A stretch of 64,000 bases of DNA from Beroe forskalii. Lineage: Eukaryota; Ctenophora; Nuda; Beroida; Beroidae. The notes beneath the pieces were generated by a model. That model saw only the letters and a program-made list of their open reading frames with translations. It was not told the origin of the DNA and did not search any database. Location of the stretch: assembly GCA_011033025.1 (NCBI GenBank), contig WFMF01000042.1, positions 284,501 through 348,500 on the forward strand, in the 5' to 3' direction. Positions 32,776-64,000 of the stretch are shown piece by piece. The first letter of the stretch is position 1; each line of letters starts with the position of its first letter. A program made the position numbers and the translations under genes.

Positions 32776-33295
32776 TTATATTAAACTTTCACGCCCTTCA
32801 CATTTTGTGTAACATAATCAAATCATATTAACATAATGATTGAATATTCTTTCTCCATAGTCCAAAATCAAATCAAATCAACAATAAACAGATATTCACA
32901 CAAGGTCACAGCCTCATGCCACACAAACAAATCAAATCAACAATAAACAGATATTAATTGATCAATAGTTCTCTAATACTTCAGAAAAGGTGGTGTAATA
33001 TCCCTCAGTGTATTTCATATTTTATGATGTGAAATAATTTGATGGCAGTTTGTAATCTAGTAAGGATACAATTGAGTGCCTATTGAATGTGACATTTTAT
33101 TCTCATTTGCTGTTTAGCAGAGGCCTTGTTCATCGTAACCTGATGTCTCAGAAGAACAGGTCCTAAATTTCCATCTTCTTCTACACATTCTTCCCTTCCT
33201 GCAAACCCCACACCACTCCTGAAACTAAAGGAAAATGTATAATTTGTTGTGCTACTTTATTTGTGATTTTAAATGGCCAAAACTGTATTCAACCA

Positions 33296-33466
33296 GGAAG
33301 CCCACCTCAAAGCCTTGCAGCATATACAGTTAGCAGCCAATCGTGAGTGGTTGACGAGCCGACCCAGAGTTCCATCCTCCTTTGTGGCGTCGATGCAGAG
33401 GCCTTGTTCATCGTGGGAGAAAAAGAACAGGTAGCCTCCATCTTCTTCTGCACATGGGCTCTGTGG
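33296..33466 (-). pseudogene. SET-domain fragment (KMT5A-like)
   Basis: The minus-strand frame contains CIDATKEDGTLGRLVNHSRL and EEDGGYLFFFSHD, matching the core of the intact SET gene at 55335. The order is rearranged and both gene ends are missing. It lacks the GKGRG cofactor loop and the final DYG motif, so it cannot encode a working enzyme. Confidence 0.9.
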
Positions 33467-33470
33467 TGAC

Positions 33471-34755
33471 ATGATTACACTTTCCTCACATCGCAGACCA
33501 AGGAGTGGAGCAGCCAACAACATTCCTGAATCCCACCTCATCCTCACCTACCATCCCATCATGATATCCACCCTCAACAGAGATGACCTGAAAGACACCC
33601 TTCTAACGAGACTTCGGGAGAAGGGCTACACATCATTCAGTGATCAGACAACCAAAACCCTGGTCAGGCACACAAGACTAGTCCCCCTAAAGACCTGAAA
33701 GTGTAGGGTTGAAGGACTCATGCTGACAAACTATGGCATGAAGCAACCCGTACATGAGTCCACTCTCCATACCGACAACTACACCCCCATCACCCACACT
33801 CCTCCTCCTGGCTACCCTCCTAACACATTCGACATTTCCTTCTCATTCTTCCTCCCCACCCTCCTCACCGTCAGAATGAGAGATGCCCCTGGTCTCGTCA
33901 GATATTCCCTGTACTCACCTCTGGACCAGAGGCCGCCTCCCCGTAGATACAACATTGGTGGCACCTTTGTGAGGACCTTCGACTGCCCCAGTGACGCTAC
34001 AGAGCCAGCTGTCCTGCAGCACTTACAGCATCCTGCACCACTATGTCCTCCAGGCTACGGGCAAGGACATGCTGACAGCTCCAGGGAACGTCAGAACAGA
34101 CTGGAGACCTACCAGCAGCTGTACAGGGACTTCCTGGAGGTGGACTACGGACGACTGGGTGGGCTCAGGCATGAGAGCCGTGTGAGAGCTGTCACACCCT
34201 CTCTAGCTGTGCAGGCAGTCCAACGGAAGTGGCCCTGGGAGATTGCCAACTACAATCCTGAGGTCTTCCGGATGTCGGTGCAGGACTACCTGATAGCTCT
34301 TCCCCAGGTGCTAGACAGGGCTGTTGACGAGCTCTATGACCTGGGGTTCTCCCTCTCCCACAGAGCTCCACCTCCTGGACAGACTGCTACAATCACGATC
34401 CCTCAAAAGAACGTGTTTGGGGATTTGAGGAGACTGGTTGGGGAGACTGTTCGGCCTGGGCAGTGTGTGACGGACCCGATTGATGAGGATGCCTGGTGGA
34501 GGAGGAGATTCAGAGAAGACGACCCAATCTACGTCCCTCTTCCGCCAGTTATCCTGAGTTGGACAACAGACGAGCAACAGTGGAGAACTCCACATCAGAT
34601 CAGGAGTTCTTGAGGATCCTCAAGGCTGCTATCACTAACTCGTACAGTCGGAGGAGGGTGAACTGGGAACGTTCAGATGCTCGTTACAGGGATTGACAAA
34701 GGAACAGATTGTCAACCGTGGGAAGTGGCTGAAGAAGCAGGGACCTTTGATTGGT
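33471..34755 (+). pseudogene. ORF-B homologue, broken
   Basis: Two open segments (33471-33698 and 33720-34613) plus a frame-shifted tail to about 34755 align with residues of ORF-B from its N-terminal third to its C-terminus. Conserved blocks include RLGGLRHESRV, SPLDQRPPPRRYNIGG, LPQVLDRAVDELYDLG and DPIDEDAWWRRRFR. A stop near 33699, a shift near 33990 and another near 34580 break it. Protein-level conservation with many nucleotide changes indicates that the ancestral frame was a real gene. Confidence 0.88.
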
Positions 34756-34894
34756 CACGTTAATTGTTGCATATATTTGATTGTGTGAATATTTTATGTT
34801 AATTTGATTTGATTATGTTACATGAGGCTGCGACCTTGTGTGAATCCATTCTCTTTTGAATTTTCTCAGCAAAGAACTTACTTTTCAGTTTGTA

Positions 34895-49133: not shown

Positions 49134-50690
49134 GTGAGTGCAGCTGAGATTCACACTAATACGTTTCTGCAGAGTGAGTGAACATTCCATTCACAGAAAG
49201 ACAGAATAACCCTTCATAGTACTTGTCCAAATGAGACTGTAGAATATTAGTATGGATCACCCTCAAACAACATCCAATTAAGACTAAGAGTCGCTGTTAG
49301 GGTGCGCCCTTTTTTCAAAGTTTTTTAGGCTCTTTGACTCGATTGTAGATCTCAGTGAGCTGATCACGAGGATATCAAGTTTTTGAAAATGGACAATGTC
49401 TTCCTTGCCTCTGGGCGTTTTTATGTTTCAGATGTCACACTCACGACCCAATCACGATCCGCCTGCTAGTACTTTTGTGCGCTCTGATTCCGCGCGCAAT
49501 TGTAATTGCTATGTTCGCGGATCTGAGTTGTCTGTGTCAATCTGTGCTATCTATGGCATTGGTAAGACTTATCTTTATTGAATTATAGAATTTTCTGTTA
49601 CCAATCTATGATAGACGCAGATAGCAAATAATTTAAGGATCAGCTTATCTTGCCAGTGACATTTTCAAGCTGATAATAGCGATTACTTGGAGTTGGAAAA
49701 TGGAAGCTCAAGTTTATACATTGAGAGCTGGGAAGTACATTAGCACTATACAGGGTTAAAATTGTACATTCCAATCAGGAGTCAGGGTGCATGTGACTGC
49801 TGAGTGTCCTCAGTCAGATCACATGACAAAGCAGAGGACACTCTCCCTCAACCAATGACCGAGCAGAACAAGGTTCTCGTGACTGATAGAGGAGGAAGCA
49901 AGCAGTATCTCTTTGACCATGAAGAAATCCAGTTAACAGTGAACTAGTTTGTTATATTTCAACGAGTAGGCACTCTTGCTAATTCTATTTCATCGTTCGG
50001 CAGTCTTGAAGCTTATTCCGATCCCGAGATTTGTGAAAAGTGAAACACAAAAAAATCCGTTTTATTGTTTTGTACTTTTTTAATCATGAGTTATGGAAGT
50101 ATGCAGGAATTATTGTTCCCGCAGATTCCAAAATTAGCAAGTATAACTCCAAGTCCAGGCTCCTAGGGTATTAGTAATAAGGTACCATGATTATGATACC
50201 AGAATTGCAGACTAGCAAGAGTCCACAATTAAAGGGGGTACTCACGGAACAGCTGGGAACACGCCACACAGATTATGATTATTTCAGTCAAGAAGGGATT
50301 ATGTCTGGCGTTGCTACACCCCCTGGGTCTGAAAAAGGCGGACAAAGCGGATTCAAAACGAAGGAATGTCGCTCGGAATAATGGGAATCGAGTTCTAATC
50401 CCATAGTCATGGATTAGACCTGCACTTCTGTTGTCTGAGATCGCGAATTCGTACTCTTCTGATTTAGATGATTAGGAAACGGCCAAGATAACGGTATACA
50501 AGTTCCTCAGGATTTTGAACCGTCGCTCATAATCGTGACACTATAATGTAATTTTCTGATACCAATCTACTAATTCTACGATAGACGCAGATAACAGATA
50601 ATTTTAGAATCAGCAAGTTCTACAGTGCCATTTTCAAGCCGATAATTGCGGGACATGGAAGTCTTGACAATTACCGGCTGACACCACTGC
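49134..50690. other. No exon recognised; contains a ~100-bp dispersed direct repeat
   Basis: Segments 49590-49680 and 50549-50652 are related (CAATCTATGATAGACGCAGAT-like, CATTTTCAAGC(T/C)GATAAT). They are in direct orientation about 960 bp apart and may bound an element or a duplication. No coding sequence supported. Confidence 0.5.
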
Positions 50691-50699
50691 TGGCAGACT

Positions 50700-50770
50700 T
50701 GCTGGAGCCAGCCAGCTATGACAGCCAGCTAGCCGGTTAGCGGGCCGGGCGGTTTGGTTTGGCCGGGTTT
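50700..50770. repeat. CCGG-rich patch
   Basis: CCAGCTAGCCGGTTAGCGGG resembles the palindromic DNA at 6160-6910. Confidence 0.55.
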
Positions 50771-50787
50771 TTGGAAAAATTTTTTAC

Positions 50788-52680
50788 CTTAACCCTAACC
50801 TTAACCTAACCTAACCTTAACGCCAACCCTAACCTTGACCTTAACATAACCTTAACAACATAACCTTAACGCCCAACCTTAACGCTAACCTTAACGCCCA
50901 ACCTTAACCTTAACCTTAACCTTAACGCCCGAGCCTTAACCTTAACGCCAACGCAACATAACCTTAACCTTAACCTTAACCTTAACATAACATAACATAA
51001 CCTTAACCTTAACCTTAACCTTAACGCAACATAACGCCAACATAACCTTAACCAACCTTAACCTTAACGCCCAACGCCAACGCTTAACCCAACGCCTAAC
51101 TTAATAACCTAACAACGCTAACCTTAACCTTAACCCAACCTAACCTTAACCTTAACGCCAACCGTAACCTTAACCTTAACCTTCTAACCTAACCTAACCT
51201 TAACCCTTAACCTTAACCTTGACCTTAACCTTAACCTTAACCTTAACCTTAACCTCAACCTTAACCTTAACAACATAACCTAACGCCAACGCTAACCTTA
51301 ACCTTAACCTTAACGCCAACGCCCAACGCTTAACCTTAACCTTAACGCCAACCTAACCTTAACCTTAACCTTAACCTTAACCTTAACCTTAACCTTAACC
51401 TTAACGCCAACCTAACCTAACGCAACGCCAACCTTAACCTTAACCTTAACGCAACCTCAGCGCAACATAACCCTAACCCTTCTTCAACCTAACCTTAACC
51501 TTGACCTTGACCTTAACCTTAACCCAACATAACTTAACCTTAACCTCAACCTTAACCTTAACCTTAACCTTAACCTTAACCTTAACCTAACCTTAACCTA
51601 ACCTTAACCTTAACCTTAACCTAAACCTTAACCTAACCTTATCCCTTAACCTTAACCTTGACCTAACCTTAACCTTAACCTTAACCTTAACCTTAACCTA
51701 ACCTTAACCTTAACGCCAACCTAACCTAACCTTAACCTTAACCTTAACCTTAACCTAACCTTAACCAACCGCCCAACCTTACCTAACCTTAACAACCTCA
51801 ACCTTAACCTTAACCCTAACCCTAACCCTAACCCTAACCCTAACCCTAACCTTAACCTTGACCTTGACCTTAACCTTAACCTTAACCTTAACCTTAACCT
51901 TAACCTTAACCTTAACCTTAACCTTAACCTTAACCTTAACCTTAACCTTAACCTTAACCTTAACCTTAACCTTAACCTTAACCTTAACCTTAACCTTAAC
52001 CTTAACCTTAACCTTAACCTCAACCTTAACCTTAACCTTAACCCTAACCCTAACCCTAACCCTAACCCTAACCTTAACCTTAACCTTAACCTTGACCTTA
52101 ACCTTAACCTTAACCTTAACCTTAACCTTAACCCTAACCCTAACCCTAACCCTAACCCTAACCCTAACCCTTAACCTTAACCCTTAACCTTAACCTTAAC
52201 CTTAACCTTAACCTTAACCTTAACCTTAACCTTAACCTTAACCTTAACCTTAACCTTAACCTTAACCTTAACCTTAACCTCAACCTTCACCTTAACCTTA
52301 ACCTTAACCTTAACCTTAACCTTAACCTTAACCTTAACCTTAACCTTAACCTCAACCTTAACCTTAACCTTAACCTCAACCTTAACCTTAACCTTAACCT
52401 TAACCTTAACCTTAACCTTAACCTTAACCTTAACCTTAACCTTAACCTTAACCTTAACCTTAACCTTAACCTTAACCTTAACCTTAACCTTAACCTTAAC
52501 CTTAACCTTAACCTTAACCTTAACCTTAACCTTAACCTTAACCTTAACCTTAACCTTAACCTTAACCTCAACCTTAACCTTAACCTTAACCTTAACCTTA
52601 ACCTTAACCTTAACCTTAACCTTAACCTTAACCTTAACCTTAACCTTAACCTTAACCTTAACCTTAACCTTAACCTTAAG
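50788..52680 (+). repeat. Interstitial degenerate telomere-like array (CCTTAA/CCTAA/CCCTAA)
   Basis: 1.9 kb of CCTTAA units mixed with CCTAA, CGCCAA and ATAACATAA variants at the left, then near-perfect CCTTAA with short CCCTAA islands (51812-51850, 52040-52070, 52130-52170). Homogeneity increases from left to right. Long VKVKVK, RLRLRL or LTLTLT frames are by-products. Confidence 0.95.
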
Positions 52681-55092
52681 TCCCCTGTGACTAAAAGCTT
52701 GTCCCGATGTCCCGGACATTAGTCGAAATCGTAGTCACCAACGTAATTTTTTGAGTTGATACGTATAAATTTAGTGGCAAAATAAACGAAAAGTCTTTTC
52801 TGGAAGTGTTTTGCGTAACGCGCGACGCCCTTCTTCTATAACATATGCATTGTGTGTATTATGTTTAAATGCGCGTAAATTCTCTGCGTGCAAAACTAGT
52901 CTAAACTAGGAAATTCCAAAAATGTCTCGCGCTTTAGAATAACAGGCGCGACATTTCTAAACTGGAACTCCGAATTCAGTACTGTTAAATCGCAATACCA
53001 GGACATAAGTGAATTAGTCGATTGGTGCGGCGCGAGTGGGAAGATGCGATCTCGGAGAAAAACTAGTCCCCAAGATCGAATCCACTTCGTGGGTTTTCAC
53101 TTTTTTCTATGACCAGTTATTATCTAAAGGCAACATGAAATGTCAACTTGGATTACAATAACGACAGTAGAATGATCATGATACGAGGGAAAGTAAGAGG
53201 AATAGAGACGATAAAGAACTTACATTAAAGCAGATCGCCAAACCATGAAGGGTAAACGATATATGATTCACATCCAATTCCACGAAGCACGGCTTATGAC
53301 TCCCATAGCAACCGTACGATAACCCATAGCAACCAGTATAAAAACTGAGGAGTTTTCAGCGAAGCTACGGCTTATGACTCCCATAGCAACCGTACGTCTA
53401 CCCATAGCAACCAGTCTAAAAACTGAGGAGTTTTCAGCGAAGCTACGGCTTATGACTCCCATAGCAACCGTACGTCTACCCATAGCAACCAGTCTAAAAA
53501 CTGAGGAGTTTTCAGCGAAGCTACGGCTTATGACTCCCATAGCAACCGTACGATAACCCATAGCAACCAGTCTAAAAACTGAGGAGTTTTCAGCGAAGCT
53601 ACGGCTTATGACTCCCATAGCAACCGTACGATAACCCATAGCAACCAGTCTAAAAACTGAGGAGTTTTCAGCGAAGCTACGGCTTATGACTCCCATAGCA
53701 ACCGTACGATAACCCATAGCAACCAGTCTAAAAACTGAGGAGTTTTCAGCGAAGCTACGGCTTATGACTCCCATAGCAACCGTACGTCTACCCATAGCAA
53801 CCAGTCTAAAAACTGAGGAGTTTTCAGCGAAGCTACGGCTTATGACTCCCATAGCAACCGTACGTCTACCTATAGCAACCAGTCTAAAAACTGAGGAGTT
53901 TTCAGCGAAGCTACGGCTTATGACTCCCATAGCAACCGTACGTCTACCTATAGCAACCAGTCTAAAAACTGAGGAGTTTTCAGCGAAGCTACGGCTTATG
54001 ACTCCCATAGCAACCGTACGTCTACCTATAGCAACCAGTCTAAAAACTGAGGAGTTTTCAGCGAAGCTACGGCTTATGACTCCCATAGCAACCGTACGAT
54101 AACCCATAGCAACCAGTCTAAAAACTGAGGAGTTTTCAGCGAAGCTGCGGCTTATGACTCCCATAGCAACCGTACGATAACCTATAGCAACCAGTCTAAA
54201 AACTGAGGAGTTTTCAGCGAAGCTACGGCTTATGACTCCCATAGCAACCGTACGATAACCCATAGCAACCAGTCTAAAAACTGAGGAGTTTTCATTGAAG
54301 CTACGGCTTATGACTCCCATAGCAACCGTACGACTACTCGTAGCAAACAGTATAAAAACTGAAGAGTTTTCAGCGAAGCTACGGCTTATGACTCCCATAG
54401 CAACCGTACGATAACCCATCGCAACCAGTCTAAAAACTGAGGAGTTTTCAGCAAAGCTACGGCTTATGACTCCCATAGCAACCGTACGTCTACCCATAGC
54501 AACCAGTATAAAAACTGAGGAGCTTTCAGCGAAGCTACGGCTTATGACTCCCATAGCAACCGTACGATAACCCATAGCAACCAGTCTAAAAACTGAGGAG
54601 TTTTCAGCGAAGCTACGGCTTATGACTCCCATAGCAACCGTACGTCTACCCATAGCAACCAGTCTAAAAACTGAGGAGTTTTCAGCGAAGCTACGGCTTA
54701 TGACTCCCATAGCAACCGTACGTCTACCCATAGCAACCAGTCTAAAAACTGAGAAGTTTTCAGCGAAGCTGCGGCTTATGACTCCCATAGCAACCGTACG
54801 ACTACCCATAGCAACCAGTATAAAAACTGAGGAGTTTTCAGTGAAGCTACGGCTTATGACTCCCATAGCAACCGTACGTCTACCCATAGCAACCAGTCTA
54901 ATGTTAATGTTATGCACAGTAACATACTTACCAGAGGTATTGCAATTCATCATTGAATTTACAGGTCCAATTTTACTAAAGCTAGTCAGAACAAGATCAA
55001 GCATTGGAATTAGTCGATTTTAGCCGGAAACTAGTCAAAACGTGCCTCTTAATCCAGGAAATTAGTCAAAATGAAAACTTTAGTCACTGGCA
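52681..55092. mobile_element. Possible TIR element carrying the 78-bp array, inside telomere-like DNA
   Basis: The left edge GTCCCCTGTGACTAAAAG and the complement of the right edge, GTGCCAGTGACTAAAG, are similar. TTAGTCGA/ACTAGTC motifs recur just inside both ends (for example GAATTAGTCGATT near 53009 and 55008). Both flanks are CCTTAA-type sequence. No transposase seen; the interior is mostly the 78-bp array. Confidence 0.4.
53285..54900 (-). repeat. 78-bp tandem array A, about 20 copies
   Basis: The unit reads CGGCTTATGACTCCCATAGC, then AACCGTACG(ATAA or TCTA)CC, CATAGCAACCAGTCTAAAAA and CTGAGGAGTTTTCAGCGAAG. The period, 78 bp, is exactly 26 codons, so one minus-strand frame stays open for the whole array (RTVAMGVISRSFAENSSVF repeated). 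No signal or known family, and the same unit is repeated at 59973. Confidence 0.95.
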
Positions 55093-55334
55093 CCTTAACC
55101 CAAACCCTAACACCTCCCTTACCCTCTATATACTAAATGTATTTGGTCTTATTTTACAAAATCAAATTAACTCAACATAGCGATATATTAAACTTTCACA
55201 CAAGGTCACAGCCCTGTGTAACATAGTCAAATCAAATTAACATAATAGATTGAATATTTACACAAGGTCGGTGCCTTATGTTACAAAATCAAATCAAATC
55301 AACAATAAACAGATATTAAATAATCAATAGTTCT

Positions 55335-56081
55335 CTAAAACTTCAGAAAAGGAAAATCCTTAAGAACGTTTGTCCTTCTTTCTCCGTAGTCAAACAAGAG
55401 TTCGTCTCCAGGAGAAATTGGATTTGCAGCCACAAAGTAAATATGAGGCTGCCCATCAACCACAATCTTCTTGGGAGTACAGTTAGCAGCTAATCGTGAG
55501 TGGTTGATGAGCCGACCCAGTGTACCATCGTCCTTCGTCGCGTCGATGCAGTAGGATTGTCCATCGTGGGTGAAGAAGAACAGGTAGCCTCCATCTTCTT
55601 CTGCACATTCTTCCCTCCGCAGTCCCTCACTCCTGGAAATGAGCTCGCCACTATATTCAACCAGGAAGTCTCCCTCCTCGAAGCGTTCTGTAGCATATAC
55701 TCCACGCCCCTTTCCTCTGGAAGTTTTGACTTCTAACCCGCTGTTGTCGGGGTGCCGGATCTTCTGACACAGCTGCTCCATCTTCTCAGCTGTTGTCATC
55801 TTGGACCGTGTAGATCTTCTGATCACAGGAGCCTGAGGTGAGGAGGGGAGGGGAGGCTGCACGAGTTGTTCAGTTGCTGGAGAAGGAATTGCAGCTCCGG
55901 GAGATAAGGCGGATGGTTGAAGGGAGGATTCCTTGGAGCCTGAAGTGCCGTCTCTCAATTCCCTCTGCTGCCGTCTCTTCAGTCTTTTCCGTTCCCTGTC
56001 TCGTCTCTTCATCTCTTCATACTGCTCCTCTGTCTGGTTGTCTCTCCACTTCCGTGTACGATATTTTGAAGTTGTAGACAT
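55335..56081 (-). CDS. SET-domain lysine methyltransferase, KMT5A (SET8)-like
   Basis: Encodes 248 residues from Met at 56081 (MSTTSKYRTRKW); the in-frame upstream Met at 56177 falls at or upstream of the TATA-like site and is less likely. A basic Lys/Arg-rich N-terminus (KRRDRERKRLKRRQQRE) and a Ser/Pro linker precede the SET domain. SET motifs: GKGRGVYA (cofactor loop), GDFLVEYSGELI, YCIDATKDDGTLGRLINHS with the NHS catalytic/cofactor motif, and GDELLFDYGER. These match KMT5A, which monomethylates histone H4 Lys20, closely. All key motifs are present and the frame is intact and intronless, so an active enzyme is plausible. Presence inside a repeated element suggests it is cargo rather than the host KMT5A gene. 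Confidence 0.9.
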   Translation of the reverse strand: MSTTSKYRTRKWRDNQTEEQYEEMKRRDRERKRLKRRQQRELRDGTSGSKESSLQPSALSPGAAIPSPATEQLVQPPLPSSPQAPVIRRSTRSKMTTAEKMEQLCQKIRHPDNSGLEVKTSRGKGRGVYATERFEEGDFLVEYSGELISRSEGLRREECAEEDGGYLFFFTHDGQSYCIDATKDDGTLGRLINHSRLAANCTPKKIVVDGQPHIYFVAANPISPGDELLFDYGERRTNVLKDFPFLKF

Positions 56082-56533
56082 CTTCAAACAATCGAGAGGT
56101 ATCAATCTGTAGGTTTTGTAAAAGCAAAAAGAACGATGCTGCCCTCCAATTGCATTTCCTTTTATCCATTTTTTCACAATGAACTTCCTTGTTAAGTGAT
56201 TGACTTAAGTGGATCATATGTCACCAAGGTGATGCTGTCTCACATGCCGCATTCGTTGCTTGAATCAAGTTCTTGACAGGAATTAAACAGGATGAGTGGA
56301 TCACATATCACCACTTAACGACGTAGCTCGTTGTTCTTCCTTAGGGTGTATTCCATGACACCACTTTAGCACTGTGAAGTTTATGCTCCTTCTCGTCATG
56401 AGCTGACACCATGTCTCACATGTCGATGTGTGACGAGTTGGTGATAAGGATTGACACTTAGCATCATGCTAACGAGCTAGCCAATATCGAATATATAAGC
56501 CAAGTTGAAGTTCAAAGAGTATCGTCTTCCATT
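56082..56533. promoter_or_regulatory. Divergent promoter region of the SET/ORF-B element
   Basis: 452 bp between the two start codons. A TATA-like GGATAAAAGG (complement of 56158-56167) lies about 80 bp upstream of the SET start; ATATATAAG (56491-56499) lies about 35 bp upstream of the ORF-B start. Repeated GTGGATCA(C)ATATGTCACC, ATCACATATCACCAC and TGTCTCACATG motifs could be binding sites. Copy B shows no difference from this region (offset 7302, no gaps). Confidence 0.6.
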
Positions 56534-58039
56534 ATGCCTTCATCATTTGTCCAGACAACGTACAACGAATACCTCGAAGCATGCCCTCCTTCTGATCCAG
56601 CCCTGCAACGCCCTGACCTCGATTACTACCGAGTTTCTGTGGCGGTGAGATCCCCCTCCTCCCCCATCTTGGACCTACTCCAGGCGCTCTGCGGGGAGAT
56701 GGTGACCCTCTCATCTAAAGGGAGTCCACGTTCTGGAGCTGAACAGAACATTCCCGAAGACCACCTCATCCTGACGTTCCACCCTATTATAATCTCCACC
56801 ATCAACGTCGGGGACCTAAAGGACCGTCTGCTGAAGAGACTCACCTTGAAAGGCTATCCCTCCTTCAAGGATCCGACCACAAGAACTCTGGTGAGGCAGA
56901 CTAGACCCGTTCCTGTCAAAGTATTCCTGAAGGCCCTCCAGAAGTGCGGCGTACCTGCAGTCTCCCTCACCAATTATGGGATGAAGAACCCCCTAATGGA
57001 CTCCCCTCTTCATCTTCATTCTGATGCCCTGCTGTCCCACCCTCCCCCAGCTGACTACCCCCCCAATTCCTTCGACGTGTCCTACTCCTGCTACCTCCCA
57101 ACCCTTCTCACCATTAGGATCAGAGCTGCACCTGACATCACCCGATACGTCCTCTTCTCACCCCTGGATCAACGTGTACCCCCTCTACGGTACAACATGG
57201 GAGGATCGCTGAAGAGGGTGCTGGTGGACAATCCCGACCCTGCTGATTCCTGCGTGGTGTCCTGCAGCAAGTACTCCCCCCTCCACCACCACGTGATCCA
57301 GGCGACTGGGAAGGGGATGCTGACGGCACCTGGGAGCATCCGGAATGGACAGAAGAGATTGGAGACTTACCAGACGCTCTACAGAGACCTCCTAGGCGTC
57401 GACTACCGTCGGTTGGGTGGGCTGCGGCACGAGAGTCGGGTGCAAGCCCACACTCCTCTCGTGGCTCTACGGCTGGTTCAGGAGACGAAGCCCTGGCAGA
57501 TCTCCAACTACAACCCGGAGATCTTCAAGATGTCTGTGGAGGATTACCTGGTGGCCCTCCCTCAGGTGCTGGACCGTGCGGTGGACGAACTTCACAGCCT
57601 CGGGTTTACACTGGCTCACCGGGCACCTCCTCCAGGTCAATCGGCGACTTGCACCGATGCTCACAAGTCGGTGTTCGGTGACCTGAGGAGGCTGTTCGGT
57701 GAAACGGTGTTACCCGGGGGGTTTTTGACGGACCCCATCGACGAGGATGCCTGGTGGAGAAGGAGATTCAGAGTCGAAGTAGACTACGTCCCTCTTCCCC
57801 AGGTCGTCCTCCCGCCTGCCCCTGACGCGGAGAGGCCCACCACAATCCCTCCCATGGACGACGAGGACTTCTTAGGGCACCTGAAGTCTGCCATCACCAA
57901 CTCTTACAACCGGGGGAGGGTAGACTGGGGACGGGTCCAAATGCTCGTAACCCAGGTATACCCTGGCCTTACGAAAAATCAGATCTGTAATCGAGGAAAA
58001 TGGCTGAAGAGGCAAGGAATTTTTGATTGGACATTGTAA
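56534..58039 (+). CDS. ORF-B, 501-residue protein of unknown family in the SET element
   Basis: An intact intronless frame from ATG at 56534 to TAA. I recognise no established transposase, integrase, polymerase or HUH signature. Conserved blocks shared with the decayed copy C: ILTFHPIIIST, SLTNYGMK, SPLDQRVPPLRYNMGG, RLGGLRHESRV, ISNYNPEIFKMSVEDYLVAL, HRAPPPGQSAT and DPIDEDAWWRRRFR. The last about 50 residues (AITNSYNRGRVDWGRVQMLV ... ICNRGKWLKRQG) look like a Myb/SANT-type helical DNA-binding unit. It is divergently paired with the SET gene. Role unknown; a DNA-binding or transposition function is inference only. Confidence 0.85.
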   Translation: MPSSFVQTTYNEYLEACPPSDPALQRPDLDYYRVSVAVRSPSSPILDLLQALCGEMVTLSSKGSPRSGAEQNIPEDHLILTFHPIIISTINVGDLKDRLLKRLTLKGYPSFKDPTTRTLVRQTRPVPVKVFLKALQKCGVPAVSLTNYGMKNPLMDSPLHLHSDALLSHPPPADYPPNSFDVSYSCYLPTLLTIRIRAAPDITRYVLFSPLDQRVPPLRYNMGGSLKRVLVDNPDPADSCVVSCSKYSPLHHHVIQATGKGMLTAPGSIRNGQKRLETYQTLYRDLLGVDYRRLGGLRHESRVQAHTPLVALRLVQETKPWQISNYNPEIFKMSVEDYLVALPQVLDRAVDELHSLGFTLAHRAPPPGQSATCTDAHKSVFGDLRRLFGETVLPGGFLTDPIDEDAWWRRRFRVEVDYVPLPQVVLPPAPDAERPTTIPPMDDEDFLGHLKSAITNSYNRGRVDWGRVQMLVTQVYPGLTKNQICNRGKWLKRQGIFDWTL

Positions 58040-58189
58040 TAATATATTATGTTGATTTGATTTTATTATATTATGTTGAATATATTATGTTGATTTGATT
58101 TTATTATGTAACATGAGGCTGCGACCTTGTGTGAATTTTATAACATTTTGACATTCTCCCTGCAAAAACATTCTTTCTTTCAAACAAAG

Positions 58190-58530
58190 TAAACTAAGTA
58201 AACTAAGTAAACTAAGTAAACTAAGTAAACTAAGTAAACTAAGTAAACTAAGTAAACTAAGTAAACTAAGTAAACTAAGTAAACTAAGTAAACTAAGTAA
58301 ACTAAGTAAACTAAGTAAACTAAGTAAACTAAGTAAACTAAGTAAACTAAGTAAACTAAGTAAACTAAGTAAACTAAGTAAACTAAGTAAACTAAGTAAA
58401 CTAAGTAAACTAAACTAAGTAAACTAAGTAAACTAAGTAAACTAAGTAAACTAAGTAAACTAAGTAAACTAAGTAAACTAAGTAAACTAACTAAGTAAAC
58501 TAAGTAAACTAAGTAAACTAAGTGGGCTAA
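58190..58530 (+). repeat. (AAACTAAGT)n array, first block
   Basis: About 37 copies of the 9-bp unit AAACTAAGT start 55 bp beyond the right end of copy A. Confidence 0.97.
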
Positions 58531-59100
58531 GTGGGCTGGGTGGGCTAAGTGGGGCTAAGTGGGCTAAGGTGGGCTAAGTGGGCTGGTGCTAAACTAAAAC
58601 TAGCAAACTAAGTAAACTAAACCAAAACTAAGTAAACCAAGTAAACTGCAAACTAAGGTGGTGGGCTAAGGTGGGCTAAGTGGGCTAAACAAAGCTAAGC
58701 AACTAAGTGGGCTAAGTAAACTAAGTAAACTAAGTAAACTAAGTAAACTACTAAGTAAACTAAGTAAACTAAGTGGGCCAAAACTGGTGGGCAACCAAGC
58801 AAACTGAGTGGGGCAAGGTGGGCTGGTAAACCAAGTGGGCTGGGTGGGCTAAACTACAAACTGCAAACCAAGTGGGCTAAGGAACTAAGTGGGCTAGCAA
58901 ACTAAAACCAAGTAAACCAAGCAAACTAGGTGGGCCATAAACCAAGCAAAACCAACCAAACCAAGTGGGCTAAGCAAACTAAGCAAACTGAGTAAACCTA
59001 AACTGGGCTAACTGGGCCTAAGGTGGGCTAAGTAAACTAAGTAAACTAAGTAAACTAAACTAACTAAATGGGCTAACCTAAACCAAGTAAACCAAGCTAA
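58531..59100 (+). repeat. Degenerate middle of the AAACTAAGT array
   Basis: Mixed units in which GGGCTAAGT, GGGCTGGGT and AAACCAAGC replace AAACTAAGT. The switch between AAA and GGG in the same register is notable. Confidence 0.85.
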
Positions 59101-59946: not shown

Positions 59947-59972
59947 CCTTAACCTTAACCTTAACCTTAACG
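59947..59972 (+). repeat. Short CCTTAA run
   Basis: Four CCTTAA units join directly to the 78-bp array. Confidence 0.9.
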
Positions 59973-61449
59973 GCTTATGACTCCCATAGCAACCGTACGA
60001 TAACCCATAGCAACCAGTCTAAAAACTGAGGAGTTTTCAGCGAAGCTACGGCTTATGACTCCCATAGCAACCGTACGTCTACCCATAGCAACCAGTCTAA
60101 AAACTGAGGAGTTTTCAGCGAAGCTACGGCTTATGACTCCCATAGCAACCGTACGTCTACCCATAGCAACCAGTCTAAAAACTGAGGAGTTTTCAGCGAA
60201 GCTACGGCTTATGACTCCCATAGCAACCGTACGATAACCCATAGCAACCAGTCTAAAAACTGAGGAATTTTCAGCGAAGCTACGGCTTATGACTCCCATA
60301 GCAACCGTACGATTACCCATAGCAACCAGTCTAAAAACTGAGGAGTTTTCAGCGAAGCTACAGCTTATGACTCCCATAGCAACCGTACGATAACCTATAG
60401 CAACCAGTCTAAAAACTGAGGAGTTTTCAGCGAAGCTACGGCTTATGACTCCCATAGCAACCGTACGATAACCCATAGCAACCAGTCTAAAAACTGAGGA
60501 GTTTTCAGCGAAGCTACGGCTTATGACTCCCATAGCAACCGTACGTCTACCCATAGCAACCAGTCTAAAAACTGAGGAGTTTTCAGCGAAGCTACGGCTT
60601 ATGACTCCCATAGCAACCGTACGTCTACCCATAGCAACCAGTCTAAAAACTGAGGAGTTTTCAGCGAAGCTACGGCTTATGACTCCCATAGCAACCGTAC
60701 GATAACCCATAGCAACCAGTCTAAAAACTGAGGAGTTTTCAGCGAAGCTACGGCTTATGACTCCCATAGCAACCGTACGATTACCCATAGCAACCAGTCT
60801 AAAAACTGAGGAGTTTTCAGCGAAGCTACGGCTTATGACTCCCATAGCAACCGTACGATAACCTATAGCAACCAGTCTAAAAACTGAGGAGTTTTCAGCG
60901 AAGCTACGGGTTATGACTCCCATAGCAACCGTACGATAACCCATAGCAACCAGTCTAAAAACTGAGGAGTTTTCAGCGAAGCTACGGCTTATGACTCCCA
61001 TAGCAACCGTACGATAACCCATAGCAACCAGTCTAAAAACTGAGGAGTTTTCAGCGAAGCTACGGCTTATGACTCCCATAGCAACCGTACGATAACCCAT
61101 AGCAACCAGTCTAAAAACTGAGGAGTTTTCAGCGAAGCTACGGCTTATGACTCCCATAGCAACCGTACGATAACCCATAGCAACCAGTCTAAAAACTGAG
61201 GAGTTTTCAGCGAAGCTACGGCTTATGACTCCCATAGCAACCGTACGATAACCTATAGCAACCAGTCTAAAAACTGAGGAGTTTTCAGCGAAGCTACGGC
61301 TTATGACTCCCATAGCAACCGTACGATAACCCATAGCAACCAGTCTAAAAACTGAGGAGTTTTCAGCGAAGCTACGGCTTATGACTCCCATAGCAACCGT
61401 ACGATAACCCATAGCAACCAGTCTAAAAACTGAGGAGTTTTCAGCGAAG
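59973..61449 (-). repeat. 78-bp tandem array B, about 19 copies
   Basis: The same unit and orientation as array A, again open for 500 codons on the minus strand. It ends at GCGAAGC and is joined without a gap to a SET-gene fragment. Confidence 0.95.
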
Positions 61450-61541
61450 CTGGTTGTCTCTCCACTTCCGTGTCTCTCCACTTCCGTGTACGATATTTGA
61501 AGTTGTAGGCATCTTCAAACAATCGAGAGGTATCAATCTTT
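61450..61541 (-). pseudogene. SET gene 5' fragment of partial copy B
   Basis: Matches 56034-56117 (start codon region of the SET gene), with an extra 17-bp tandem duplication (TCTCTCCACTTCCGTGT) and small changes; the start ATG is changed. After CAATCGAGAGGTATCAATCT the match stops; the remaining element sequence resumes only at 63467. Confidence 0.85.
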
Positions 61542-61880
61542 AAACTTTACAACACTACTTTAAACAATCAAATTTGAGGATGTCGAAATGATGAATATGT
61601 AAACCACGTGACGGGTACAGCGAAGGGGGATTGGGGGGCCATGGCGCTGAAAAGTCTCGGGGGCTAGTCTGCATGCGGTTGCCATTCTCTTCAGATCTGA
61701 CTTGGGCTTTGTGGGACGCACATTAAGAGGACTGGCAGACACCATCACAAATAAGATAAGTTTTTAATGTCTGTTGTGTGTTGGTTTCCACGCACATCAC
61801 CCAATCTAACCTCACTTAATGCAGACTAACCCCATAGCTCGACATCCTCAAAATTTGATTGTGCATGTAGTGCTGTGGAG
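61542..61880. mobile_element. Short TIR element related to the 16.7-kb inverted repeat
   Basis: CAATCAAATTTGAGGATGTCGA (61567-61588) pairs with TCGACATCCTCAAAATTTGATTG (61840-61862). Outer motifs are TTTACAACACTACTTTAAA and TGTAGTGCTGT. The same CTCAAATTTGATTG/AGTGTTGTAAAG motif is at 16755-16790. No supported gene inside. Confidence 0.65.
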
Positions 61881-62880: not shown

Positions 62881-63501
62881 ATGACGAAAGGCAAACGACC
62901 AGCCCAATCTGGAGATTTGAAAACCCCTGCTGCAACCTTAACAGTCCCAAACAAGAGAGCTGCAAGGTCAGCTGGGAACTCACCTGCTTCTTCTCCAGTG
63001 AGTCGTAAAGACTCTCTCCCTCCCTCCAAGCCACCAACATCAAGCAGCTCAGTCGCTGAAGACCTTGATGAAACACTGCAGATAGATGTCCTAGAAACAA
63101 GCTTTATGTCCACACCAGCAAACAGCAGTCTGCTAGCACCCACCAAGCTGACAAACTGTCCCTGTGCTGTGTTTGACCGGAAAAGCACAGACATCACATG
63201 CTCCAAGTGCAACAGAAGCTGGCACACAGAGTGTTGTAACCTGAAAGGACTCACGCAAGCTGTTACCAAGAAATTAGGGCCTAAATGGGAATGCCCCTGG
63301 TGCTACCAGCCCTCAGTACCAAATCCTGATGTCAAAAATGGGAATGAGACTGCAGAGTCGTTGAAAGCATTCATGTCTGACATCTCACGACTTCAGAACT
63401 GTTCTGAGATGCTAAGGGATGGTGCCTCAAGTGTAGAGTTCTTCAATCACCACATCAAACATTTGCTCCATTTTTTCACAATGAACTTCCTTGTTAAGTG
63501 A
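62881..63501 (+). pseudogene. PHD-finger protein, truncated by copy B
   Basis: From Met at 62881 (MTKGKRPAQSGDL) it encodes a basic Ser/Pro/Lys-rich region followed by a C4HC3 PHD finger: CPCAVF, CSKC, WHTECC and CPWC (about residues 97-143). An alternative in-frame Met lies at 62851. The frame crosses into element copy B at about 63467 and stops at 63501, so the last about 11 residues are foreign. A PHD finger behind a basic Ser/Pro-rich region occurs in ORF1 proteins of some CR1/L2-type retrotransposons as well as in host chromatin proteins; I cannot decide between them. Confidence 0.7.
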
Positions 63502-64000
63502 TTGACTTAAGTGGATCATATGTCACCAAGGTGATGCTGTCTCACATGCCGCATTCGTTGCTTGAATCAAGTTCTTGACAGGAATTAAACAGGATGAGTG
63601 GATCACATATCACCACTTAACGACGTAGCTCGTTGTTCTTCCTTAGGGTGTATTCCATGACACCACTTTAGCACTGTGAAGTTTATGCTCCTTCTCGTCA
63701 TGAGCTGACACCATGTCTCACATGTCGATGTGTGACGAGTTGGTGATAAGGATTGACACTTAGCATCATGCTAACGAGCTAGCCAATATCGAATATATAA
63801 GCCAAGTTGAAGTTCAAAGAGTATCGTCTTCCATTATGCCTTCATCATTTGTCCAGACAACGTACAACGAATACCTCGAAGCATGCCCTCCTTCTGATCC
63901 AGCCCTGCAACGCCCTGACCTCGATTACTACCGAGTTTCTGTGGCGGTGAGATCCCCCTCCTCCCCCATCTTGGACCTACTCCAGGCGCTCTGCGGGGAG
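63467..64000 (+). mobile_element. SET/ORF-B element partial copy B, runs off the window
   Basis: Shows no difference from 56165-56698 with a constant offset of 7302 and no gaps, as far as I can check by eye. It starts inside the divergent promoter of the element, so it lacks the SET gene and left end here. The break point TCCATTTTTTCACA is where the PHD frame is cut. Confidence 0.92.
63836..64000 (+). CDS. ORF-B of copy B, 5' part
   Basis: The first 55 codons of the same 501-residue frame as 56534, apparently unchanged, with the same TATA-like ATATATAAG about 35 bp upstream. Continues beyond the window. Confidence 0.88.
   Translation, partial: MPSSFVQTTYNEYLEACPPSDPALQRPDLDYYRVSVAVRSPSSPILDLLQALCGE

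Follow-up and report, generated by a model that had tools for sequence, protein, structure and literature searches.

Organization of the element

Analysis of a 64,000-nucleotide stretch of Beroe forskalii DNA (C492:284501-348500; hereafter the window, to which coordinates given without a contig name refer) indicated that positions 55195..58135 hold a candidate DNA transposon, delimited by inverted ends and carrying two intact genes, which are designated open reading frames (ORF) A and B. Searches of the species' own genome were made over the 216-Mb assembly of 1,134 contigs, and showed that homology between the copies of this unit falls off at its outer ends.

The terminal sequence TTCACACAAGGTC begins at 55195 and is found reversed at 58123-58135, with all 13 bp perfectly matched. 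The outer copy of the left terminal inverted repeat (55195..55257, plus strand) is 63 bp long and 83% identical to the reverse complement of the right terminal inverted repeat (58073..58135, minus strand), as expected from a preliminary description of the locus that had reported matching inverted ends. A second copy of the left repeat lies further in (55257..55304, plus strand), with ATA ahead of it; it is 88% identical to the right end over 48 bp and matches at 25/29 positions.

ORF-A (55335..56081, minus strand) encodes a predicted SET8/KMT5A-type lysine methyltransferase of 248 aa, recognised by Pfam SET and PDB SETD8 sequence matches, and ORF-B (56534..58039, plus strand) encodes an orphan protein of 501 aa that is kept across copies and has no accepted family match. 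The two genes are intact and divergent, as previously described, and each consists of a single uninterrupted open frame. The intergenic stretch (56082..56533) is, to judge from its position, likely to be the promoter region.

Copies of the element across the genome

Relatives of ORF-B were detected at 14 places on 11 contigs, namely C492 (three), C436, C99, C892, C1035 (two), C28, C396, C544, C658, C1036 and, weakly, C356, and the family is thus present at more than one genomic locus. In the window, the decayed second copy mentioned in the preliminary description was found at 32895..34844 (plus strand; the 33-kb copy), where both ends, an ORF-A remnant and an ORF-B remnant with stops are recognisable. 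The near-identical partial third copy starts at about 63467 (63467..64000 within the window, plus strand), is 98% identical, lacks ORF-A and runs past the window. Since its right flank is identical to that of the main copy (40/40 bases outside the end), it is regarded as a local duplicate and not as an established separate insertion. A short fragment (61471..61542, plus strand) corresponds to element bases 845-917.

An 82-bp stretch beside the left end of the main copy recurs with 96% identity about 0.6 kb to the left of the left end of the 33-kb copy, where another fragment of an end lies next to it. The two copies also resemble each other in their right flanks, mostly through a 9-bp tandem array. 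The 33-kb copy and the third copy are therefore at least partly local duplications. Elsewhere the C892 locus was duplicated together with its flanks along with the 33-kb copy, as were C1035 with C28 and C658 with C1036; since several copies, the third among them, were duplicated along with their flanks, separate insertions are fewer than copies. The C658 and C1036 loci share about 95% identity across some 2.9 kb and carry the same broken N-terminal piece of a C544-type ORF-B, and by sequence they appear to be a duplicated decayed lineage.

The C436 copy has kept the divergent order of ORF-A and ORF-B, its two halves being separated by 4.4 kb. Its right end is lost and the ORF-B stop is followed directly by a (GTAAACTAA)n array. 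An array of the same unit flanks the right end of the main copy (58189..58500, plus strand; exact-match search of the genome); 127 exact genome matches were obtained and the 100 listed all lie on C492 and C436. Between the C436 ORF-A and ORF-B a separate element of about 4.4 kb was seen by eye (C436:305207-309654); its inverted ends are long (AGCCCCCACCCAGAATGCGACATCG...) and it holds large GATTCGTC/GACGAATC arrays.

On C544, ORF-A shares 50% identity with its window counterpart and ORF-B 48%. The two genes are again divergent and lie 48 kb from each other; by our own arithmetic, two such loci would fall this close in 216 Mb by chance about 5 times in 10,000. A 32-bp motif common to the two C544 loci was rejected as a pair of ends, as it lies at non-equivalent positions. 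A DNA match on C111 was dropped as a copy (78% over an A+T-rich stretch), as were weak SET-gene matches on C303, C385, C500 and C422. On C715, two decayed ORF-A-like remnants lie about 2.6 kb apart. None of the 10 neighbouring open frames compared with Pfam (eight around six copies and two beside the C544 genes) gave a match.

Two further features were recorded in the neighbourhood of the window copies. Arrays of an approximately 90-bp repeat lie on both sides of the main copy (53268-55004 and 59967-61412) and are open as long minus-strand frames, and an ORF with a PHD-finger-like region (62881-63501; Pfam PHD_4, E 0.00018, below the cut-off) abuts the third copy.

End sequences and boundaries

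Ungapped comparison of 11 ends revealed that the 40 bases inside the end shared 27-40 identical positions in every pair. The 40 bases outside, counted without a shuffled control, shared 7-22, with the exception of the main and third copies (40/40); the highest outside values among the remainder, 21 and 22, belong to copies duplicated with their flanks (C1035/C28 and the 33-kb copy/C892). Since the ends agree inside and not outside, the base at which homology falls is the same across several unrelated flanks, and such a drop is the trace left by a mobile element. Apart from the one duplicated pair, definable ends were thus obtained, and terminal inverted repeats at which homology stops, as in cut-and-paste DNA transposons, characterise the family.

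A 21-bp end motif, allowing up to two mismatches, gave 11 genome matches, all of them at family copies, and the reversed control gave none; a 29-bp end motif, allowing up to three mismatches, gave nine, again all at family copies, with none in the control. Neither motif matched the assembly away from family copies. The trinucleotide ATA stands directly before 8/13 non-redundant ends, or 7/10 when duplicated flanks are counted once. In this count 13 of 16 rows were used: two rows at the same places as the window were left out, together with one row at 19/29, a level at which a shuffled control gave one hit. The ATA is compatible with a TA-type target or with three further end bases.

The left flank of the C436 copy, broken by a high-copy repeat, recurs without the element at C492:352.6-353.07 kb, with 84% identity over the repeat-rich part and 98.9% over the last 88 bp. 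This homology ends within four bases of the element boundary and a fold-back repeat occupies the spot, so that the locus represents a half site. The short fold-back repeat itself (TACTTTAGAGGC ... GCCTCTAAAGTA, at C492:353.07 kb) is at the position matching the left boundary of the C436 insertion.

The SET8-type gene ORF-A

Comparison of ORF-A with PDB sequences gave SETD8 with E 4.9e-36, and the best 14 of the 112 sequences matched were SETD8/KMT5A/SET8, which places ORF-A by sequence among SET8/KMT5A-type enzymes, in line with its earlier assignment. The SET domain comprises residues 125-233 (55383..55709, minus strand; Pfam SET E 5.7e-21). Upstream of it in the protein, the motif RRSTR (residues 88-92; 55806..55820, minus strand) resembles the SET8 arginine anchor R188/R192 in an alignment with a one-residue shift made by eye; the anchor binds the acidic patch (PMC7893823, in the part available). 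The putative anchor motif RRSxR is retained in the sequences of all three copies compared, as RRSTR in the window, RRSSR in C436 and RRSGR in C544.

At the Phe/Tyr switch, Phe230 is found in the window ORF-A and Phe in C436, while C544 has Tyr. The Tyr of the SET8 monomethylase is thus replaced in the window enzyme. Following the meaning given to this switch in excerpts of PMC3356298, the Phe of ORF-A predicts di- rather than mono-methylation; structures of SET8 Y334F are tabulated in PMC3529403, likewise available in part. Conservation at about 50% identity and an intact frame suggest that ORF-A is a real, selected gene, and argue for it less directly than the evidence given below does for ORF-B.

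Another KMT5A-type gene occurs on C526, where the matches fall in two separate stretches, unlike the single frame of ORF-A, and this gene, split into at least two parts, is probably the host gene. An open match to a Harbinger-type transposase occurs about 8 kb from these stretches (C526:293-2071 and C526:10365-10841).

The orphan protein ORF-B

No accepted match to ORF-B was obtained in Pfam (whole sequence and pieces), NCBIfam, PHROGs, PADLOC or PDB sequences (single sequence and two-row profile), nor in phage records searched by tblastn. The libraries searched therefore agree with the preliminary description, in which ORF-B was said to lack a recognised transposase signature, and they match it to no host family. 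Relatives were not found in viral and prokaryote contigs either, by scans that need exact short peptides and would miss distant relatives. Pfam matches to ScsC_N, VMAP-M5 and Reovirus_L2_N and PDB rows with E 0.66-1.4 were discarded as below the cut-off and inconsistent between copies. Inspection by eye led us to drop a tyrosine recombinase (a GLRHE stretch is present, with no HxxR box) and an HUH nuclease (the second His is not conserved). The CACTA/CMCT transposases, whose motifs are C(2)C and H(3-4)H (PMC12730594, as available in part), were rejected as well, since C17, C53 and C186 are the sole invariant cysteines between the two intact ORF-B and no CxxC is present.

Both predicted models of ORF-B contain a C-terminal three-helix domain, which suggests that the protein ends in a domain resembling a DNA-binding type. 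This putative helix-turn-helix-type domain (Myb/SANT or winged-helix) covers residues 437-501 (57842..58036, plus strand). No fold is claimed outside the tail because both models leave all else unresolved. The VIA lists, which cover the tail alone, contained Myb/SANT at any height only in the first list, and winged-helix proteins scored as well or better in both. In the second list, obtained with the C544 model, winged-helix proteins take the leading places and Myb proteins are missing from the upper rows, which disfavours a firm Myb label; a sequence match to Myb was obtained in one copy (E 0.034, below the cut-off) and none in the window copy. What stands of the Myb-like tail proposed earlier is hence a predicted helix-turn-helix-type domain.

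ORF-B is conserved over its whole length between intact copies, which are 45-48% identical. The ratio of nonsynonymous to synonymous substitution (dN/dS, Nei-Gojobori) was 0.12-0.36 in nine comparisons with the window copy, four of which (C544, C658 and two pieces of the 33-kb copy) are near synonymous saturation. Against the window copy, the excess of synonymous change was significant in C436 (pooled p 2e-9), in C99 (p 1e-6) and in the third copy (p 0.001). In the third copy, 29/32 differences lie between 57229 and 57760, and because they cluster there this tract may stem from gene conversion with another copy. The comparison of C544 with its broken C658 relative was weaker (dN/dS 0.52, p 0.006). 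The dN/dS values and the synonymous excess therefore show that ORF-B is a real gene under purifying selection between copies, as the protein-level conservation had earlier been taken to mean.

Interpretation of the locus

The locus is bounded by defined inverted ends, both of its divergent genes are uninterrupted, and copies of the ends occur in several unrelated flanks. The explanation we favour, at about an even chance, is that it belongs to a DNA transposon family of low copy number, with elements of about 2.9 kb, in which ORF-B is the end-binding mobility protein and ORF-A a captured SET8-type enzyme. The C-terminal helix-turn-helix-type domain of ORF-B would bind the terminal repeats, of which tandem copies lie near the left end, and ORF-B would catalyse or organise excision and insertion, preferentially at an ATA/TA site. 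ORF-A would dock on the nucleosome acidic patch via its arginine anchor and methylate H4K20 around the element. The host SET8 acts in a particular cell-cycle phase. The element might thereby alter its own chromatin state, or couple its movement to the phase in which the host SET8 works. That ORF-B founds an undescribed family of eukaryotic transposases or end-processing recombinases, within a superfamily carrying its own H4K20 methyltransferase to shape local chromatin, we consider a minority possibility.

Several results weigh against a mobile element of this kind. A search with the joined flanks of the window copy gave no match that spanned the junction, and the empty-site comparison proposed in the preliminary description thus failed to give a clean site, the half site of C436 being what it yielded. 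No target-site duplication is present in either of the two copies that have both ends, and no catalytic motif was recognised in ORF-B, for which the two models are poor (mean predicted local distance difference test score, pLDDT, 37.1 and 35.9, from 10 and 18 rows). The dN/dS comparison, also proposed there and significant for ORF-B, was non-significant for ORF-A against C436 (p 0.26), and against C544 the synonymous sites are saturated. Intact ORF-B and intact ORF-A were each found only twice, in the window and on C544; no recognisable ends surround the C544 genes, and the part of their interval that was read (50000-58600 of 11.5-60 kb) holds a host-like gene frame, with a sub-threshold match to a ubiquitin-binding zinc finger, as well as a reverse-transcriptase-like frame (label by eye; Pfam none). 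The ORF-A-like remnants on C715 are without ORF-B and have no end motif within the 9 kb examined, and on C356 a B-like fragment and a Harbinger-type transposase match are 1.8 kb apart.

This last neighbourhood bears on an explanation that we regard as a serious minority possibility, in which the element is a non-autonomous member of Harbinger(S) composed of the SET gene and a very diverged Myb-like accessory ORF-B, its DDE transposase having been lost and being supplied in trans. In excerpts of PMC12730594, SET methyltransferases are already published as transposon cargo, in HarbingerS (Kojima and Jurka 2014, Repbase Reports, as cited there) and in Phytophthora MuDR families, and Harbinger-related elements make duplications of 0, 2 or 3 bp. 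Harbingers combine a DDE transposase with a Myb-like end-binding protein that is poorly conserved between families (PMC9179366, in part), and the tail of ORF-B is predicted to be helix-turn-helix/Myb-like. Set against the target-site duplication of PIF/Harbinger (3 bp; 0 or 2 bp in relatives), our family shows ATA at 8/13 ends and a duplication in 0/2 two-ended copies. At least 35 DDE_Tnp_4 matches were found in the genome; among those listed none lies beside the main copies and just two share a contig with a copy, on C436 (about 294 kb away) and on C356. There the most diverged B-like fragment (C356:68527-68754) lies upstream of, and on the same strand as, the match at C356:70568, an arrangement expected by chance at about 0.7% by our own arithmetic, which ignores transposon clustering. 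It is because this fragment lies near a DDE_Tnp_4 match that descent from Harbinger stays alive as an explanation. Two local Harbingers argue the other way: each combines a transposase frame with another frame whose Myb match is below threshold, and these frames are dissimilar to ORF-A and ORF-B (best tblastn E 0.32); over 6 kb each, one had no end-motif match of at least 13/19 and the other had two at 13/19, taken as chance. The absence of matches to our family's ends elsewhere in the assembly, and the conservation of ORF-B along its full length between intact copies 45-48% identical, likewise count against a Harbinger origin.

The loci duplicated together with their flanks, and the intact C544 pair, which lacks ends, is 48 kb apart and has a host-like gene in the interval as far as it was read, would fit a host gene pair, or a once-mobile pair now used by the host, that spread by segmental duplication of repeat-rich regions. 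The sharp drop of homology where the inverted ends meet several unrelated flanks, the transposon-like decay of most copies, and the single open frames of both genes, compared with the two stretches of the C526 KMT5A-type gene, make this improbable. The distance between the divergent C544 genes and the 4.4 kb between the C436 halves could also suggest a larger mobile element that has ORF-A on one side, ORF-B on the other and cargo in the middle; the window copy would then be an internal-deletion form of it. The C436 insert, however, has by eye inverted ends of its own, the C544 genes lack the end motif around them, and the zinc-finger and reverse-transcriptase-like frames occupy the part of their interval that was read; we consider such an element very improbable.

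Comparison with known systems

Of the preliminary description of an undescribed element with methyltransferase cargo, the repeated unit and its sharp ends stand, while SET cargo as such proved to be already in print (PMC12730594, in the part available). The element is best read as a methyltransferase-carrying DNA transposon, a new variant with no recognised Harbinger transposase. If ORF-B moves it, the protein would represent a kind of transposase missed by current profile libraries; if the element is instead a Harbinger derivative, its SET8-type gene would still be a further case of methyltransferase cargo, here accompanied by an unusual protein. With a SET8 that is carried by a transposon and predicted to have an altered product state, the role of H4K20 methylation in evading silencing, or in timing movement, could be tested directly.

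Like HarbingerS, as far as the available text describes them, the element is a DNA transposon with a gene for a SET-domain lysine methyltransferase and possibly a Myb/SANT-type protein; unlike them, it has no DDE_Tnp_4 match in ORF-A, in ORF-B or, among the matches listed, beside the main copies. From the local Harbingers it differs in ORF-B, which is dissimilar to their proteins, and in the end motif, which was not found at the two examined. Searches of the open-licence literature found no account of a pairing between a SET8 gene and an ORF-B-like protein. Like human KMT5A/SET8, ORF-A has the same SET core and an arginine-anchor-like motif, and unlike it, ORF-A is an uninterrupted frame within inverted ends, with Phe where SET8 has Tyr334.

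The SET domain of SETMAR is of a different class from that of ORF-A. SETMAR, in which SET is fused to the Hsmar1 transposase, resembles the element in joining a SET enzyme to a transposon protein (PMC9062482, in part), and differs in being a host gene born by fusion and not a mobile two-gene element. The TET/JBP-carrying fungal DNA transposons also have a chromatin or DNA modification enzyme as cargo, thought in that case to counter silencing; there the enzyme is a dioxygenase and not a methyltransferase, and the lineages have recognised transposases (PMC12730594, as far as its available text goes).

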